NCBI RefSeq assembly: GCF_027460265.1
Contig: NZ_JAPZBC010000001.1
Coordinates: forward strand, 5,994,001 to 6,058,000
Source: Streptomyces sp. WMMC940
GTDB taxonomy: Bacteria; Actinomycetota; Actinomycetes; Streptomycetales; Streptomycetaceae
Length of the DNA stretch: 64,000 nt
Direction of reading: 5' to 3'
The notes beneath the pieces are model-generated. The model saw only the letters and a list, made by a program, of their open reading frames with translations, did not search any database and was not told the DNA's origin. A program made the position numbers and the translations under genes. Within the stretch, counting starts at the first letter, position 1. The number at the start of each line of letters is the position of its first letter. Positions 25,194 through 33,119 of this stretch are shown here, piece by piece.

Positions 25194-27298
25194 TACGCTG
25201 CCCTCCTGTTGCGGACCGTGCTGTCGGTTCCCGTCGTCGCCGCCCGTACGTCCCGGACCAGCCCGGCGATGCTGTCGGCGCGCAGCTCGTCCAGGGTGAC
25301 GGCGGTGCCGCCGAGGTCACGGGCGAGGTTCCCGGCCAGGCCGAGTCGCACCGGGCCCGCCTCGCAGTCCACGACCACCGAGGCCGTGCCCTCGGCGGAG
25401 TGCAGCCGGGCCGCGCGCCCCGCGAGCGCCAGGGCGTCGCCACCGCGCGCACCGGTCGCCCGTCCGTCGGTCACGACCACCAGCAGCGGCCGCCGCGAGG
25501 GGTCGCGCAGCCGCTCCACCCGCAGGACGTCATGGGCCTTCAGCAGCCCGGCGGCCAGCGGTGTCCGGCCGCCCGTCGGCAGCTCCTCCAGCCGTGCGGC
25601 GGCGGCGTCCACGGACGAGGTCGGCGGCAGCGCCACCTCGGCGCCGGTGCCCCGGAAGGTGACCAGTCCGACCTTGTCCCGGCGCTGGTAGGCGTCCAGC
25701 AGCAGCGACAGCACCGCGCCCTTCACGGAACTCATGCGCCTGCGGGCCGCCATGGAGCCGGAGGCGTCCACGACGAAGAGCACGAGATTGCCCTCGCGGC
25801 CCTCGCGGGCGGCCTGCCGCAGATCGTCCCGGCGGACCACGAGGCCCGGTCCGGAGCGGCCTCGGGCCCGCTGGTGCGGCGCCGCCGCCCGCACCGTCGC
25901 CGCCAGGTGCAGCTTGGTCAGCGTCCCCCGCGGTCGGCGCGCTCCGGTGGTCCTGCCGTGCTCGGTACGGGCCCGGGAGCGGCGCCCCGCGGCGCCCTCG
26001 CCGAGGCCGGGCACGCTGAGCACCTTCGTACGGAACGGCTCCGCGGCCCGCTCGGCGGCCCGCTCGCCCGCGCCGGTGCTCGCGGCGGGCGGTCCGGCGG
26101 GTTCGGACGGCTCCGGCTGCCCGGCGGGCGACTCGGACGGCTCGGGCTGCCCGGCGGGCGGGGCGGAGTCGGGCCCCTGGCCCTGCGGCGGGACCCCTCC
26201 GCCGCCGGGGCCGCCGTCCGGGCCGGACGGATCCGTGTCGGGGTCCGGATCGGGGTCGGTGTCCGGGTCCGGCCGGTCGTCCCCGCCGAACTGCTCCAGC
26301 GTCTCGTCGAGTTTGTCCTCGTCGAGGCCGGGCGCGTCGAACGGGTTGCGCCGGCGCCGGTGGGGGAGTGCGAGGAGCGCGGCCTGCCGCACGTCCTCCT
26401 CGCGCACGGCCGTACGACCCGCCCACGCGGCCAGCGCCGTCGCGGTGCGGGCCATCACGATGTCGGCGCGCATGCCGTCCACCTCGAACGCCGCGCAGGT
26501 GGCGGCGATCTGCCGTAGCGCCGCGTCCCCGAGCTCCACCCGGGGCAGCAGGATCCGCGCGGTCACGATGCGCTCCCGCAGTGCCGCTTCCTCGTCCGCC
26601 CAGCGGGCCGCGAAGGCCGCGGGGTCGTCGTCGTGGGCGAGCCTGCGCCGGACGACCTCCACCCGCTGCTCCGGATCCCGCGACGCGGCGACCTCCACGG
26701 TCAGCCCGAAGCGGTCGAGCAACTGGGGCCGCAGCTCCCCCTCTTCGGGATTCATCGTGCCGACGAGCAGGAACCGCGCGGCGTGCCGTACGGACACACC
26801 CTCGCGCTCGACGTAGGAGGCGCCCATCGCGGCCGCGTCCAGCAGCAGGTCGACCAGATGGTCGTGGAGCAGATTGACCTCGTCGACGTACAGCACGCCC
26901 CGGTGGGCGTCGGCGAGCAGACCGGGCTCGAACGCCTTCACCCCGTCCGCGAGGGCCCGCTCGATGTCGAGCGCGCCGACGAGCCGGTCCTCCGAGGCAC
27001 CGACGGGCAGTTCGACCATCCTGGCCGGGCGTGCCGCGGCGGGCGCGGCCTCGTGCGGCCCGTCCGGGCAGCCCGGGTCCGGCGCCCCGGGCGAGCAGGA
27101 GAACCGGCAGCCCGCGACCACGTCGACATCGGGCATCAGCGCGGCGAGGGCGCGCACGGCCGTCGACTTGGCGGTGCCCTTCTCCCCGCGTACGAGCACT
27201 CCGCCGACGGCGGGGCTGACCGCGTTCAGCAGCAGGGCCAGCCGCAGGTCGTCCATGCCGACGACCGCCGTGAAGGGGTAGTGGGGTGCGTTGCTCAC
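25193..27298 (-). CDS. Putative cobaltochelatase/Mg-chelatase-like subunit (AAA + VWA)
   Basis: 701 residues from GTG 27298. An N-terminal ChlI/BchI-like AAA ATPase (Walker [10 protein letters not shown], Walker [11 protein letters not shown], about residues 1-330) is followed by an acidic and Pro-rich linker (about 340-440) with repeats ([17 protein letters not shown] twice), and a C-terminal von Willebrand A domain with MIDAS DASGSM (about 510-690). ATP-driven partner of CobN in aerobic cobalt insertion. No cobN lies beside it here. Overlaps cobQ by four bases and cobO by one. Confidence 0.92.
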
Positions 27299-28848
27299 TG
27301 TGCGGCTCCAGGGGTTCCGGCGGCGGGCGCACCGGGGAGGTCGGGGGCGCCCGGCGGGATGAACGGCAGACCCGAGGGCGCGCCGCCCTCGATGAGACGG
27401 AGGAGCGCGTCCGTGTCCGCGTGCTCCTCGACGAGGTCGCCGAGGCGGTCGAGCTGTGCCTCGCGCAGGTCGGCGAAGGAGGTGTCCGGGGCGGGGACGA
27501 AGCGGCGGCCCGACGCCGCGGCGACGGCGCGCAGGAACGCCCGGCGGAATCCGTCGCTCTCCAGCGATCCGTGCCAGTGGGTGCCCCACACCTCACCGAC
27601 CCGGCAGCCGTCGAGGAACGGCTCGCCGTCGAGCACCTCGGCGACGCCGTGATGGATCTCGTAGCCCTCGACCGGCTGCCCCAGCGCCTCACCGGACGGG
27701 CGGGCGAGCGTCTTCTCCACGGCGAAGCGCACCCGGACCGGCAGCAGTCCGAGGCCCGGCACGGCTCCGGCCCGCGACTCGACCTCGTCGTCGATGTGCT
27801 CGCCGAGCACCTGGAAGCCGCCGCAGATGCCGAGCACGGGCCGGCCCTCCGTCGCCCGCCGGGCGAGCGCGCCGGCGAGACCGCGCTCGCGCAGCCATTC
27901 CAGGGCGCGCACGGTGCCGCGGGTACCGGGCACGATCACCAGGTCGGCATCGGCCAGTTCCTCGGGGCGGTCGACGAAGCGCACGACCACTCCCGGCTCG
28001 GCGGCCAGCGCGTCCACGTCGGTGAAGTTGGACATCAGCGGCACGGCGCACACGGCCACGCGCAGCACGTCCTCGCCGACCGGCGGCGCCACCACCGACT
28101 CGCGCACGGTGCCGCGCAGCGACACCCGCAGTCCGTCCTCCTCGTCGATACCGAGCCCGTGCGCGTACGGCAGCACGCCGAAGGTGCGCCGCCCGGTGAG
28201 TCCGTGGAGCATCTCCAGCCCCGGCTCGAGCAGCGTGACGTCGCCGCGGAACTTGTTGACGAGGTATCCGGCGATCAGCTCCTGGTCCTCCGGGGTCAGC
28301 AGCGCGGTCGTGCCGAAGAACTGGGCGAAGACCCCACCCCGGTCGATGTCTCCCACGACCAGCACCGGGAGGCGCGCGGCGCGGGCGATGCCCATGTTGA
28401 CGATGTCCGTGCGTCGGAGATTGATCTCCGCGGGGCTGCCCGCGCCCTCGCAGATCACCGCGTCGTACGTGCTCCGCAACTCGTCCAGGCAGTCCATCAC
28501 CGGCTCGAACAGCGCCTTCTGGCGCCCTCCGTGGTAGCCGCGAGCGCTCAGCTCGCCCACGGGCCGGCCCATCAGCACGACCTGGCTGGACCGGTCGCCG
28601 CCGGGCTTCAACAGCACCGGGTTCATCAGGGCCGTGGGTTCCACCCGTGCGGCCTGCGCCTGCATGGCCTGCGCCCGGCCGATCTCGGCGCCCTCGCGGG
28701 TGACGAAGGAGTTGAGGGACATGTTCTGCCCCTTGAAGGGCGCGACCTTCACGCCCCGGCGCACCAGCCAACGGCAGATCCCCGCCGTGACGACGCTCTT
28801 TCCGGCGTCCGAGGTGGTGCCGGCGACCAGCAGCCCGCCCCCGCTCAT
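27295..28848 (-). CDS. cobQ: Cobyric acid synthase
   Basis: 517 residues from ATG 28848. ATP-dependent amidation of side chains b, d, e and g. N-terminal dethiobiotin-synthetase-like domain ([29 protein letters not shown]) and C-terminal glutamine amidotransferase with Cys342 in [12 protein letters not shown] and His in YEIHHG. The start codon is now the first three bases beside the IS110 left end. The natural ribosome-binding site within cobD has been displaced; the IS end supplies AAAGGA about 11 bases upstream. The C-terminal tail is Pro/Ala-rich. Confidence 0.95.
28844..28848. repeat. Left flank copy of CTCAT at IS110 insertion
   Basis: CTCAT abuts the left end of the element and is the complement of the cobQ start codon region (ATGAG). 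An identical copy flanks the right end at 30325-30329. Confidence 0.75.
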
Positions 28849-29087
28849 TAGAGGACCATCCTTTCTGCAGCCCTCTTCGGTAGGGTTGTGACCTCTCGGT
28901 CCCGGTGGGTGCATGGCCAGTGTCGCGAGCTGCTCGACGGCCAACATGAGTTACGCCAGCCCCGCCGGGCCGAGGCCGTCTGATCGGCTTCAGGGACACG
29001 CCCCGCAGAGGGCCGATTAATGAGCTCCCGGCAGACGACCTCATCACCGGGCAGGTGCTCCGTCACAGGCACAGGAGTACGACCTTC
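28849..29087 (+). ncRNA. Candidate bridge (guide) RNA in IS110 left end
   Basis: IS110-group elements encode a bridge RNA in the non-coding left end. Here ACATGAG (28944-28950) is complementary to CTCATGT of the empty target. TAATGAG (29018-29024) is complementary to CTCATTA at the left-end junction of the element, and TTCAGGGA (28989-28996) resembles the right-end strand CTCAGGAA (6 of 8). The second pair sits in a helix: GTCTG plus ATCGGC (28978-28988) pairs with GCCGAT (29012-29017) and CAGAC (29032-29036). Order target loop then donor loop matches the known architecture. Exact RNA ends are unknown. Confidence 0.6.
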
Positions 29088-30308
29088 GTGTTCATCGGGT
29101 GGGACTGGGCGACCGAGACCCATGACGTGACCGTCATGGACGACGCCGGAAAACGCATCGACCGGTGGGAACTCGCCCACACCGAGGAGGGGTTCACCAA
29201 GACTCTGGCGAGGCTGCGCAAACACGGTGCTCCGGCAGACCTGCCCGTAGCGATCGAGACCACCCGCGGCCTGGCCGTCGACCGCCTCCTTGCCGCCGGA
29301 CACCCCATCGTGCCGGTGCACCCCAACGCCTTCCACGCCATGCGGGCACGCTGGGGCGCCTCCAAGGCCAAGACCGACGCCGGCGACAGCATGAAACTCG
29401 CCGACTACCTGCGCACCGACGGGCACATGCTGCCCAGACTGGAACCCACCGAGCAGGCCACCCTCGACCTCCAGGCCCTCACCCGGCAGCGTGCCGACCA
29501 CATCGAGGCCAAGGTCGCCGCCGTCAACCAGCTCGCCGCCCTGCTGGACGAGCACTGGCCCGGGGGCAAGGCCGTCTTCTACGAACTCGACAGCGACATC
29601 GCCATGGCCTTCCTGGAGCGCTACCCCACCCCGGCCTCCGCCGCCAGGCTCACCGCCGGACGTCTCGAAGCCTGGTGCAAGCGCCACGGATACTCCGGGA
29701 AGAAGCCCGGCAGCGTCCTGATCGAACGCCTGCGCTTGGCCCCGAAGGCCGCCTCCCGCCTCAGCGAACAGGTCGCCGGACAGCTCGTCCGAGTCCAGGT
29801 GCAGCTGGTGCAGGGCATACGCGCGACGATCCGTGTCTTGGACAAGTCCATCGCCGAAGCAGCCGCAACCCATCCCTACGCACCGCTTTTCGCCACCATG
29901 CCGCGCATCGGCAAGGTCAGCCTCGGGCAGATCATCGGCGAGATCGGCCCGATCCTGGAACGCGCCCAGACCTGCGAACAACTCGTCGCCGAAGCTGGCG
30001 TCGTCCCGGTCACCCGGGCCTCGGGCAAGGCCCGCACACTCTCCTTCCGCTTCGCGACCAACCGAAGAGCTCGACTCGCGCTGACGACCTTCGCCGACAA
30101 CAGCCGCCACGGCAGCGACTGGGCCGCCAAGATCTACAACGACGCCAGGGCGCGCAAGAAGCGACACCCCCACGCGATCCGCATCCTGGCCCGAGCATGG
30201 CTCCGCGTGATGTGGGCCTGCTGGCGCGACGGCACCTGCTATGACCCCGTGATCCACCAATCCAACAGCAAGATCAACACGACCGCGGAGACGCGGATGG
30301 CGGCATAG
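29088..30308 (+). CDS. IS110-family transposase (DEDD/Tnp_IS116)
   Basis: 406 residues from GTG 29088, which has AGGAG upstream; an alternative GTG at 29055 adds 11 residues. The N-terminal RuvC-like DEDD domain shows Asp in IGWDWATETHDV, Glu in VAIETTRG and Asp in KAKTDAGDSMKLADYL. The C-terminal Tnp_IS116 domain contains MPRIGKVSLGQIIGEIGP and the conserved Ser in GVVPVTRASGKARTL. Full length and without frameshift, so probably active. Catalyses RNA-guided recombination through a circular intermediate. Confidence 0.95.
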   Translation: MFIGWDWATETHDVTVMDDAGKRIDRWELAHTEEGFTKTLARLRKHGAPADLPVAIETTRGLAVDRLLAAGHPIVPVHPNAFHAMRARWGASKAKTDAGDSMKLADYLRTDGHMLPRLEPTEQATLDLQALTRQRADHIEAKVAAVNQLAALLDEHWPGGKAVFYELDSDIAMAFLERYPTPASAARLTAGRLEAWCKRHGYSGKKPGSVLIERLRLAPKAASRLSEQVAGQLVRVQVQLVQGIRATIRVLDKSIAEAAATHPYAPLFATMPRIGKVSLGQIIGEIGPILERAQTCEQLVAEAGVVPVTRASGKARTLSFRFATNRRARLALTTFADNSRHGSDWAAKIYNDARARKKRHPHAIRILARAWLRVMWACWRDGTCYDPVIHQSNSKINTTAETRMAA

Positions 30309-30324
30309 AGGTTGACTCAGGAAA

Positions 30325-30329
30325 CTCAT
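30325..30329. repeat. Right flank copy of CTCAT at IS110 insertion
   Basis: Second copy of CTCAT, next to the right end of the element. It contains the complement of the cobD stop codon (TCA at 30326-30328), so cobD keeps its natural end despite the insertion. Confidence 0.75.
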
Positions 30330-31309
30330 GTGCGCCTCCGCCCCAGGGCCCCGGCCGCGAGGCGCCCGCCCGCGCACACCGCGAGCGCCAGCACCCCCAC
30401 GCGCCGCGAGAGCCGTACCGCCCGTTCGATGTCCGCGACCTCGACGGCCCGGCCGCCGGCGCCGTTGAGCACGGGCCGGTGCTCGACCCGGCCGCCGTAC
30501 GAGAGCGTCCCGCCGAGCCGTACGCCGAGGGCTCCGGCGAACGCGGCCTCCACGGGACCGGCGTTGGGGCTCGGGTGCTTCGCGGCGTCCCGGCGCCAGG
30601 CGCGGGCGGCGCCGCGCGGGTCGCCGCCCGCGGCGGTCGCCAGCGCCGCGGTGAGCCGGGCCCCGGGCCAGCCCGCGAGGTCGTCGAGCCGGGCGGAGGC
30701 CCAGCCGTACCGCCGGTAGCGCGGGGACTTGTGGCCGACCATCGCGTCCAGGGTGTTGACGGCGCGGAACCCGACGAGGCCCGGCACCCCGCCGACCGCG
30801 CCCCAGACGAGCGCGCCCACGACGGCGTCCGAGGTGTTCTCGGCGACGGACTCCACGACGGCGCGGGCGATGCCGGCGCCGTCCAGCGCCTGCGGGTCGC
30901 GCCCGCACAGACGCGGCAGCCGCTCCCTGGCGACCTCGATGTCCCCGGCCGCCAGCGCCCCGCCGATCGCCCGCGCCTCCAGGCCCAGCGAGGTGCCGCC
31001 GACGACGGCCCAGGTGGCGGCCGCGGTCAGGGCGACGGCGGCGCCGCGCGACCGGCGTGCGGAGGCGGCGGCCAGCGCGCCCGCGGCGATCGCGCCCCCG
31101 GCGCACACCGCGGTGTGCAGGGCGCCCCAGCCGCGGTGGTCGCGCCAGAGTCTCCGTTCGAGAGCGGCGGCGGCCCGGCCGAAGGCGGCGACCGGGTGCC
31201 CGCGGCGTGGATCGCCGAGGAGCAGGTCGCCGGCCAGCCCGGCCGCGGCGCCGTACGCGAACGTGATGTCCGGGCGCGGCGCGCCCGGCCCCCCCGGTTC
31301 GGCAGGCAT
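30326..31309 (-). CDS. cobD: Adenosylcobinamide-phosphate synthase (CbiB/CobD)
   Basis: 327 residues from ATG 31309 (GAGGA five bases upstream); an in-frame GTG at 31321 would add four residues. Integral membrane enzyme attaching aminopropanol (phosphate) to adenosylcobyric acid. Family blocks are present: LLGDPRRGHPVAAFGR, SVAENTSDAVVGALVWGAVGG, FRAVNTLDAMVGHKSPRYRRYGWASARLDD and DAAKHPSPNAGPVEAAFAGAL. Several hydrophobic helices. First gene behind the cobalamin riboswitch. The IS110 element now follows it directly. Confidence 0.95.
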   Translation of the reverse strand: MPAEPGGPGAPRPDITFAYGAAAGLAGDLLLGDPRRGHPVAAFGRAAAALERRLWRDHRGWGALHTAVCAGGAIAAGALAAASARRSRGAAVALTAAATWAVVGGTSLGLEARAIGGALAAGDIEVARERLPRLCGRDPQALDGAGIARAVVESVAENTSDAVVGALVWGAVGGVPGLVGFRAVNTLDAMVGHKSPRYRRYGWASARLDDLAGWPGARLTAALATAAGGDPRGAARAWRRDAAKHPSPNAGPVEAAFAGALGVRLGGTLSYGGRVEHRPVLNGAGGRAVEVADIERAVRLSRRVGVLALAVCAGGRLAAGALGRRRT

Positions 31310-31339
31310 GTTCGTCCTCACTCAGGGTCCGCGCCCTGG

Positions 31340-31500
31340 CTCGACGTGACCGGCGGGAGAGAGTTCCTGGCTCCGGGACGCTCCGTGAGGGGGAGCGCAC
31401 CCGTGACAGTGGCGGGACCGCGCCGGATTCGCACCGGCTTCCTCTTCTGCCGCCGTAAATGGCCCCGGAAGTCCACCACGGTCCCCGAACGCCCGTCAAC
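31340..31500 (-). promoter_or_regulatory. Cobalamin (B12) riboswitch
   Basis: Read on the minus strand, the leader of cobD contains GAAGCCGGTGCGAATCCGGC followed by CCCGCCACTGT (GCCACTGT at 31406-31413) and GAGCCAGGA (31365-31372). These are the conserved core of AdoCbl riboswitches. A small hairpin (CAGGG at 31323-31327 with CCCTG at 31334-31338) lies next to the translation start. Extents are approximate. B12 binding should reduce expression of cobD and, before the IS insertion, of the downstream cob genes. Confidence 0.88.
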
Positions 31501-31566
31501 TCGCCCTTGACCTGCGACGGGACAGTGTGCCGAGGCCCACATGGGGCGGGTGCGGGCGCGCACACG

Positions 31567-31606
31567 ACAGGGGCCGGGCCCACCCGGAGGTGCGCCCGGC
31601 CCCTGT
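31567..31606 (-). terminator. Rho-independent-like hairpin after the Pit operon
   Basis: 13-bp perfect stem: ACAGGGGCCGGGC at 31567-31579 with its complement at 31594-31606 and a 14-base loop. It separates the phosphate-transporter pair from the riboswitch of cobD, both transcribed leftward. Confidence 0.75.
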
Positions 31607-31628
31607 GCGAGGAGGTGCCGTACGGCGG

Positions 31629-31850
31629 TCAGACCACGATCAGATAGATCCCGAAGGCCACCGCCGCCGCGCAGAGCGCGAAGCAGGTGTACGCACCCGT
31701 GCGGGCGAGGCCGGCGGAGCCTCCCTGCGCTGCCGCGGCCTCCTGCTTGGAGAGACCCGCGACGCCCAGGGTGAACAGGCCCACCAGGGCGACGGTCACG
31801 ACGAGGCTCACGCCGAAGACGGAGCCCAGAGCTGCCCAGTCGATCTTCAT
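31629..31850 (-). CDS. Small membrane protein downstream of Pit
   Basis: 73 residues with two transmembrane helices (about 9-32 and 51-72) joined by a short Gln/Ala-rich loop. It begins 12 bases after the pit stop codon, so the two are co-transcribed and it may be an accessory subunit of the transporter. No homologous function known. Confidence 0.8.
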   Translation of the reverse strand: MKIDWAALGSVFGVSLVVTVALVGLFTLGVAGLSKQEAAAAQGGSAGLARTGAYTCFALCAAAVAFGIYLIVV

Positions 31851-31862
31851 GCTGTTCTTTCC

Positions 31863-33119
31863 TTACACCGTGGCGGCGGGTGCCGGAGCGGACTCGGAGG
31901 TCTGGGCCGGGATGGTGGCCTTCGGCGCCTCGGGCTCGGTCACCGAGTTCCCTACGACACCGGCCGGGGGCGGGGTGACGGCCGCGATGGCGGTGGTGAC
32001 GACTCCCGCGGGCTCGATCTCGTCGTCCGTGACGTTGGTGTGGTCGACCGGCTTGCGGCGCGAGATCACCCAGATGGCCCCGGAGCCGGCGACGAGCAGC
32101 ACGGCCACGGCGGCGATGCCCCAGGTGCCCTGCTTGGTCAGGAACTCCGCGGCCGCGGCGACCAGGCCGGCGGCGGGCAGGGTCAGACCCCAGGCGACGA
32201 ACATCCGGGTCGCGGTGGACCAGCGGACCACACCGCCCCTGCGGCCGAGACCCGCGCCCATCACGGCACCCGAGCAGGACTGGGTGGTGGAGAGCGAGAA
32301 GCCGAGGTTCGAGGAGGCCAGGATGACCGTCGCGGCGCTGGTCTGGGCGGCGAAGCCCTGCTGCGGCTGGAGGTCGGTCAGGCCCTTGCCCATCGTGCGG
32401 ATGATGCGCCAGCCGCCGAGGTAGGTACCGAGCGCGATCGCGACACCGGCGGAGACGATGACCCACATCGGGGGGTTCGAGCCGGGGGCGAGGACGCCTC
32501 CGGTGACCAGGGCCAGGGTGATGACGCCCATGGTCTTCTGCGCGTCGTTGGTGCCGTGGGCGAGGGACACCAGGCCGGCGGAGGCGATCTGGCCGGCGCG
32601 GTAGCCCTTGGAGGTGGCCTTGTTCTCGGTCGTGCCACCGATCCGGTACGTCAGCCTGGTGGCGACCAGGGCCGCGAGGCCGGCGACGAGAGGAGCCGCG
32701 ACGGCGGGGATCAGGACCTTGGTGACGATCGTGCCGCCGTTGACGGCCGAGAAGCCGGCCGACATCACCGCGGCGCCGATGAGGCCGCCGAAGAGGGCGT
32801 GCGAGGAGCTGGACGGGAGGCCCAGCAGCCAGGTCAGCAGGTTCCAGAGGATCGCGCCGACGAGCGCGGCGAAGATCACTTCTGTGCGGATGCCCTCTTC
32901 GTTGATGATGCCGCCCGAGATCGTCTTGGCGACCTCGACGGAGAGGAACGCGCCGACCAGGTTCAGCACGGCGGACATCGCCACTGCTGCCTTCGGTCTC
33001 ATCGCACCCGTCGAGATGGTCGTCGCCATGGCGTTGGCGGTGTCGTGGAAGCCGTTCGTGAAATCGAACACGAGTGCTGTCACGACGACAATCGCGAGCA
33101 GCAGGGTGATGTGCTCCAT
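31863..33119 (-). CDS. Low-affinity inorganic phosphate transporter, Pit family
   Basis: 418 residues. The paired signatures of PiT carriers are present: FDFTNGFHDTANAMAT near the N-terminus and SLAHGTNDAQKTMGVITLAL in the middle, plus GLPSSSSHALFGGLIGAA. About ten hydrophobic helices and a Pro/Ala/Thr-rich cytosolic C-terminal tail of about 80 residues. Imports phosphate with protons. PHO-box repeats upstream place it under PhoP control, as reported for S. coelicolor pitH2, its likely ortholog. Confidence 0.93.
   Translation of the reverse strand: MEHITLLLAIVVVTALVFDFTNGFHDTANAMATTISTGAMRPKAAVAMSAVLNLVGAFLSVEVAKTISGGIINEEGIRTEVIFAALVGAILWNLLTWLLGLPSSSSHALFGGLIGAAVMSAGFSAVNGGTIVTKVLIPAVAAPLVAGLAALVATRLTYRIGGTTENKATSKGYRAGQIASAGLVSLAHGTNDAQKTMGVITLALVTGGVLAPGSNPPMWVIVSAGVAIALGTYLGGWRIIRTMGKGLTDLQPQQGFAAQTSAATVILASSNLGFSLSTTQSCSGAVMGAGLGRRGGVVRWSTATRMFVAWGLTLPAAGLVAAAAEFLTKQGTWGIAAVAVLLVAGSGAIWVISRRKPVDHTNVTDDEIEPAGVVTTAIAAVTPPPAGVVGNSVTEPEAPKATIPAQTSESAPAPAATV

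Follow-up and report, generated by a model that had tools for sequence, protein, structure and literature searches.

What directs an IS110 element to the boundary between two operon genes, and how those genes might continue to be expressed across it, are the questions raised by an element of 1481 bp that is flanked by cobD/cbiB and cobQ, both on the minus strand, in the 64,000-nucleotide stretch of Streptomyces DNA analyzed here (the window, to which all coordinates refer). The transposase/recombinase gene of the element (29088–30308, plus strand) was assigned a GTG start following the annotation of its relatives. Its product carries the Pfam domains DEDD_Tnp_IS110 and Transposase_20 and passes the cut-off of the NCBIfam model transpos_IS110 for RNA-guided transposases (164.4 bits, cut-off 140); a PDB sequence search at 1e-3 returned zero matches. 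The upstream host gene, cobD/cbiB (30326–31321, minus strand; Pfam CobD/CbiB), has an intact stop, and the downstream host gene, cobQ (27295–28848, minus strand; identified by Pfam), begins at a restored ATG.

The element is bounded by two copies of CTCAT. In the left copy (28844–28848), part of the core region of target and donor, the minus strand reads the restored cobQ ATG (28846–28848) overlapping a TGA, and in the right copy (30325–30329) it reads the cobD TGA stop and a host ATG. The core common to target and donor is CTCA in nearly all copies and GTCA in L095–L097. The left end is 247 bp long, as against 16 bp from the transposase stop to CTCAT on the right. A −35-like box, TTGACT (30312–30317, plus strand), would face the left end in a circular form; at the circle junction, read by eye, it is followed 17 bp further into the left end by a poor GACCAT, and no good −10 box was identified. 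The same genome holds four near-identical copies, each with 3–4 differences from the window copy per 1481 bases, and all four are inserted at GCTCATGT and carry the same RNA segment, ACATGAG. A frameshifted relative in this genome (L005, in pieces of 85% and 93% identity) occupies the site GCTCATGC and carries the segment GCATGAG. The element-free form of exactly this junction occurs in L114 (GCTCATGTACGCCTCC), one of 19 other loci that hold the cobQ start, and in the remaining 18 the junction differs.

A probable two-loop RNA in the left end

The consensus fold of the left ends contains 49 pairs, eight of them with double changes, and places a target-binding stem-loop (28902–28968, with 28902–28917 paired to 28955–28968) ahead of a donor-binding stem-loop (28977–29037), both on the plus strand. 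The two target guides lie on opposite sides of the target loop, and the donor stem-loop is arranged alike. The region covered by both the fold and the covariance model spans 28888–29068 (plus strand), and a further 5' stem-loop before the target loop (28867–28889, plus strand) is predicted from the single sequence. The covariance model, built from 18 sequences, matches the left ends of L078, L080, L081, L083, L084 and L095–L097 (34–54% protein identity) at E ≤ 1.4e-7 and those of L079 and L082 below 1e-3; in a control set of 30 general Streptomyces IS110 loci the best matches were 0.001 and 0.0075. Folded singly, the window RNA had no significant stability relative to shuffles (z −1.20), and an Rfam scan of 27000–32000 returned a cobalamin riboswitch alone and no bridge RNA family. 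Alignment of its relatives supports the reading that the element encodes a two-loop bridge RNA in its left end. An earlier note on this DNA had proposed a target loop followed by a donor loop, each with its own specificity, and this is borne out by the consensus fold and by the guide covariation. The donor helix drawn in that note is present in the consensus as 28977–28987 paired with 29028–29037, but the arm given at 29012–29017 occurs in the single-sequence centroid only.

Guides that change with their targets

The right target guide, ACATGAG (28944–28950, plus strand), is complementary to CTCATGT at the right junction (30325–30331), as the earlier note had observed. Alone, a 7-base match within 240 bases is only mildly unlikely (an estimated ~1.5%), and the evidence therefore lies in covariation. 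Using an alignment of 23 left-end types, 20 of which have a right flank, every variable left-end column was scanned against every flank position for identity or complement, skipping columns with more than four gaps. The three best right-flank pairs are consecutive antiparallel complements, 28944 with +7 (17.5 of 20 types), 28945 with +6 (20 of 20) and 28946 with +5 (20 of 20), each of them unequalled in 2000 permutations. The scan thereby ranked 28944–28946, part of the segment singled out in the earlier note, first. In a larger set of 28 types and 42 sites, which takes in relatives of 37–42% identity, the mean run of pairing between a guide and its own target is 6.93 bases, compared to 5.11 when permuted (0 of 20,000), though such permutation counts are not independent events, as the left-end types are related. 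Pairing extends over at least 7 bases at 36 of the 42 sites; the exceptions are L031, L046, L050 and L096 (6 each), L080 (5) and L097 (4), and in the plasmid set L179 (5) and L182 (6, outside the loop). The matched guide triplets comprise ACA, GCA, GTA, CTG, CAA, CGA, GTT and AAG, and at the TTG-type site of L094 (54% protein identity) the guide GTTTGAG stands against CTCAAAC.

On the left flank the scan is headed by two adjacent identities, 28924 with −2 (17.75 of 23 types) and 28923 with −3 (13.5 of 23), and a third identity pairs 28922 with −4 (11 of 23). The −2 and −3 identities have the orientation expected of a left target guide, and GTCGC (28922–28926), read in the sense of the top strand to the left of the core, is probably that guide, which went unnoticed in the earlier note. 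Support for this assignment is modest because the scores of some columns outside the loop come close.

Donor guides show the same behavior. The right donor guide, TAATGAG (29018–29024, plus strand), pairs with the right donor CTCATTAG (28844–28851, plus strand), and its complementarity to the element's own left junction, recognized previously, is supported by donor covariation. The left donor guide, TCAGGGA (28990–28996, plus strand), falls within the segment TTCAGGGA (28989–28996) that had been matched to the right end, and is likewise supported; it corresponds to the left donor ACTCAGGAAA in the right end through five identical bases and a possible G.T pair. Across 27 related types the right donor guide run averages 6.67 bases versus 5.55 permuted, and the left donor guide run 5.59 versus 4.60 (0 of 20,000 in both cases); these counts retain two rows (L013 and L042) in which automated placement wrongly put the donor guide inside the target loop. 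In L013, L014 and L042 the donor guide and right donor mismatch at one or two positions (right donor guide run of 5), possibly reflecting G.T pairs or weakened copies.

It is extremely improbable that there is no guide RNA and that the recombinase reads a fixed CTCAT motif with only coincidental matches. Nearly all copies do have CTCA in both target and donor, but beyond it another three positions vary in step with the RNA across eight guide variants, GTG- and TTG-type sites among them, and the column-by-flank scan already contradicts such a reading.

Stop/start overlaps and the antisense frame

Read on the opposite strand, the right target guide contains RTGAG, in which a start codon overlaps a TGA stop. 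The target had previously been taken to be a cobalamin gene junction; Pfam confirms the CobD/CbiB stop and the CobQ start at this locus, but the guide is generic for RTGAG and not specific to cobalamin genes. The wider target class rests on a frame test of GC content at codon positions, applied to 35 sites (those with <200 bases of flank were dropped) and to 552 CTCAT/CTCAC control sites. An upstream coding frame ending at the TGA was found at 25 of 35 sites compared to 37 of 552 controls, a downstream gene in frame at 22 of 35 compared to 119 of 552, and both signals at 17 of 35 compared to 14 of 552. Neither signal was present at five sites (L008, L028, L041, L083 and L094). Four GTG-type sites (L026, L027, L030 and L039) have just 4–29 codons downstream and look like the end of one gene without the start of another. 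Pfam domains were present on both sides in 12 of 14 tested gene pairs, a non-random sample of 30 proteins from 16 of 20 loci in which longer ORFs were picked; the pairs include CobD/CobQ, the halves of an ABC transporter, an ABC ATPase with a CbiQ-type protein, and nitrile hydratase beta/alpha. Of 16 plasmid matches, 12 were retrieved for analysis, and five Streptomyces plasmid copies, which represent three clearly distinct sites, carry annotation at the downstream start (L180 does not and is outside these five); in all five the start codon annotated for the downstream gene falls exactly at the left junction. A strong Shine-Dalgarno motif occurs in 23 of 50 right flanks, compared to 6 of 36 CTCAT and 8 of 133 CTCAC control sites in the window, a count on which the target class does not depend. 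Taken as a whole, the sequence comparisons make it very probable that bridge-RNA guides and a stop/start target class explain the insertion of this element.

Several other features of the sites were observed. A Shine-Dalgarno-like word, AAAGGATGG (28856–28864, minus strand), lies 7 bases before the restored start codon, and the same word is present in L095 and L097 (42% identity). In L082, which apparently lies where convergent genes end, guide and target both have the sequence CTGAG, and the antisense frame is closed. One genome carries an IS110 of 34% identity in four copies (L084–L087), whose sites are of a different class (CAGAC.TC followed by TG) and whose right flanks, by look, resemble another transposase gene; the covariance model matches the left end of L084 at E 1.4e-7.

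An open frame antisense to the transposase, absent from the earlier note, links both host genes. This hed-like frame (28848–30329, minus strand; 493 codons and a stop) runs from the host ATG at the right junction to a TAA at the left junction (28848–28850, minus strand), which overlaps the restored cobQ ATG as TAATGA. A cobalamin riboswitch upstream of cobD (31341–31492, minus strand, 47.7 bits) would control this frame. In 36 of 40 copies with both junctions, a count that leaves L005 aside, no stop interrupts the frame between the host start codon and the left junction; all 36 have lengths of 2 mod 3, and the terminating sequence is TAATGA, TAGTGA or the TGA of RTGA. The closed frames belong to L041 and L092 (frameshifted), L094 (broken transposase) and L082, the last of which acts as a natural contrast because it occupies a site other than a start codon, its length has another phase and its left end contains two stops. 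At plasmid loci, a set that leaves out L185/L186 (Mesorhizobium) and L177 (a duplicate of the L176 site), the frame is open in eight of nine directly and in L187 with the junction set at the other left-end copy; these open loci include L182–L184 and L187 from Variovorax and Mycobacterium (43–46% identity). In L187, beside a Variovorax IS110, the left-end word occurs at 1662 and again at 1727 of that locus, 65 bp apart, and the doubled word is perhaps the remnant of an earlier end. The internally deleted copies L042 and L046 have lengths reduced by 717 and 987 bp, each a multiple of three; most of the transposase is gone, and with it about half and two-thirds of the antisense frame, which nonetheless stays open.

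In the mechanism proposed here, the target loop (GTCGC and ACATGAG) and the donor loop (TCAGGGA and TAATGAG) would bring the RTGA overlap and the circle junction together, and the recombinase would exchange target and donor within the shared CTCA. Because the core contains the upstream stop and the left end re-creates the start codon, both host genes stay complete. The element lies antisense to the operon, and its open frame is closed by a stop overlapping the restored start codon. Host ribosomes would accordingly read through the insert and reinitiate at the downstream gene, making the insertion nearly silent. IS900 is reportedly, in the title of Doran et al. 1997, an element that targets translation initiation signals to express hed. 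We consider the chances evenly balanced that the bridge RNA of this lineage is programmed to read the stop/start overlap of operons and that the element's own antisense strand has been shaped into a largely sequence-indifferent pass-through cistron, which ribosomes cross before restarting; insertion would be guided and translationally near-silent, and the hed of IS900 would be the same device.

The open frame could instead lack any function and follow simply from the codon use of high-GC DNA and the conservation of the left end, a reading that we regard as rather unlikely. Openness alone is a weak signal at high GC, in that 14 of 32 control transposases are free of antisense stops (TTA/CTA/TCA), 9 of 32 control IS110 loci have an open antisense frame under a loose criterion, and the focal sequences are related, many of the 40 copies closely so; shuffling also yields an open left-end frame with a chance of 0.09–0.47 per element. 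The controls were drawn from 34 loci, of which L106 and L108 were dropped for having no ORF, and some may be of the same kind as the focal elements. Against a by-product stand the antisense-stop codons themselves, at 0 of 8467 codons in 21 focal transposases and 45 of 12,796 in the 32 controls (related sequences), and the left-end lengths of open copies (247, 250, 253, 262, 265, 274, 286, 289 and 334), all of which are 1 mod 3. Left ends off this phase are those of L094 (252, transposase with an internal stop), L035 (245, right end not found) and L082 (285), where the site is not a start codon and the left end is closed by its two stops.

Alternatively, the antisense frame may encode a functional Hed-like protein, with the start-codon target serving its expression, as the title of Doran et al. 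1997 implies for IS900; this is unlikely. IS900 offers a precedent for such a protein (PMC8141618), and 36 of 40 copies keep the frame uninterrupted across the element. Each of the six identity bins that can be compared shows a greater amino-acid identity of the antisense translation in the focal elements than in control IS110s, with differences of 0.01 to 0.10, and less change at the four-fold sites of the transposase. In most bins, however, the excess is small: 0.292 versus 0.266 at 30–40% identity, 0.310 versus 0.302 at 40–50%, 0.503 versus 0.485 at 60–70%, 0.573 versus 0.507 at 70–80% and 0.670 versus 0.632 at 80–90%, with the largest value (0.808 versus 0.713 at 90–100%) drawn from 3 focal pairs only. 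An excess of this size appears too small for the frame to be called a conserved protein. The antisense ORF has zero family matches in Pfam and NCBIfam, and one weak database match was found among the best-sharing 7983 candidates scored. The small excess, the lack of a family match and the deletion copies that keep the frame with so much of its length gone all favor ribosome passage over an antisense protein.

Should the passage of ribosomes across the insert hold true, one mechanism would account both for IS110 site finding through a bridge RNA and for IS900-like antisense ORFs at translation starts, and would offer a directly testable account of how mobile DNA can spare the operons that it enters. 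The ATG, GTG and TTG variants additionally provide natural pairs of guide and target that differ at single positions.

Comparison with known IS110 systems

According to its published account (PMC8141618), IS900 of Mycobacterium avium subsp. paratuberculosis targets translation initiation signals, and hed is an antisense ORF that spans the element. The likeness to the present element is one of description only: both belong to the IS110 family, lie at translation initiation signals and are spanned by an antisense ORF without its own start (PMC8141618). Conversely, many sites here are stop/start overlaps with ATG, GTG and TTG guide variants that covary with their targets, and a guide RNA can be read from the sequence, whereas the same part of the IS900 account does not link that element to an RNA guide (PMC8141618). 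A plasmid relative from M. avium (L183) is 46% identical and was not identified as IS900. A search of the open-access literature (excluding preprints and most subscription papers) returned no paper that ties an IS110 guide to start codons or to hed.

The bridge RNAs of IS110 elements and the order of their loops were established with IS621 (PMC11208160). As in that description of IS621 and the IS110 group, the RNA described here lies in the left end, with a 5' stem-loop (here a single-sequence prediction) followed by the target loop and then the donor loop; the left guides run as the top strand, the right guides pair with it, and a core is common to donor and target (PMC11208160). The two systems differ in three respects (PMC11208160): the left target guide is supported over about 4–5 bases here as opposed to eight or nine in IS621, the target is a gene stop/start overlap as opposed to REP elements, and the core region, set beside the CT core dinucleotide of bridge RNAs, is CTCA (GTCA in L095–L097). 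For bridge recombinase tools, the first of these points to the existence of natural systems whose left guide is short. In the IS1111 group, the seekRNA account (PMC11187229) similarly describes a non-coding RNA that guides the target choice of a DEDD enzyme; unlike the left-end RNA of the present element, the seekRNA usually lies downstream of the gene and the order of its guides is reversed (PMC11187229).
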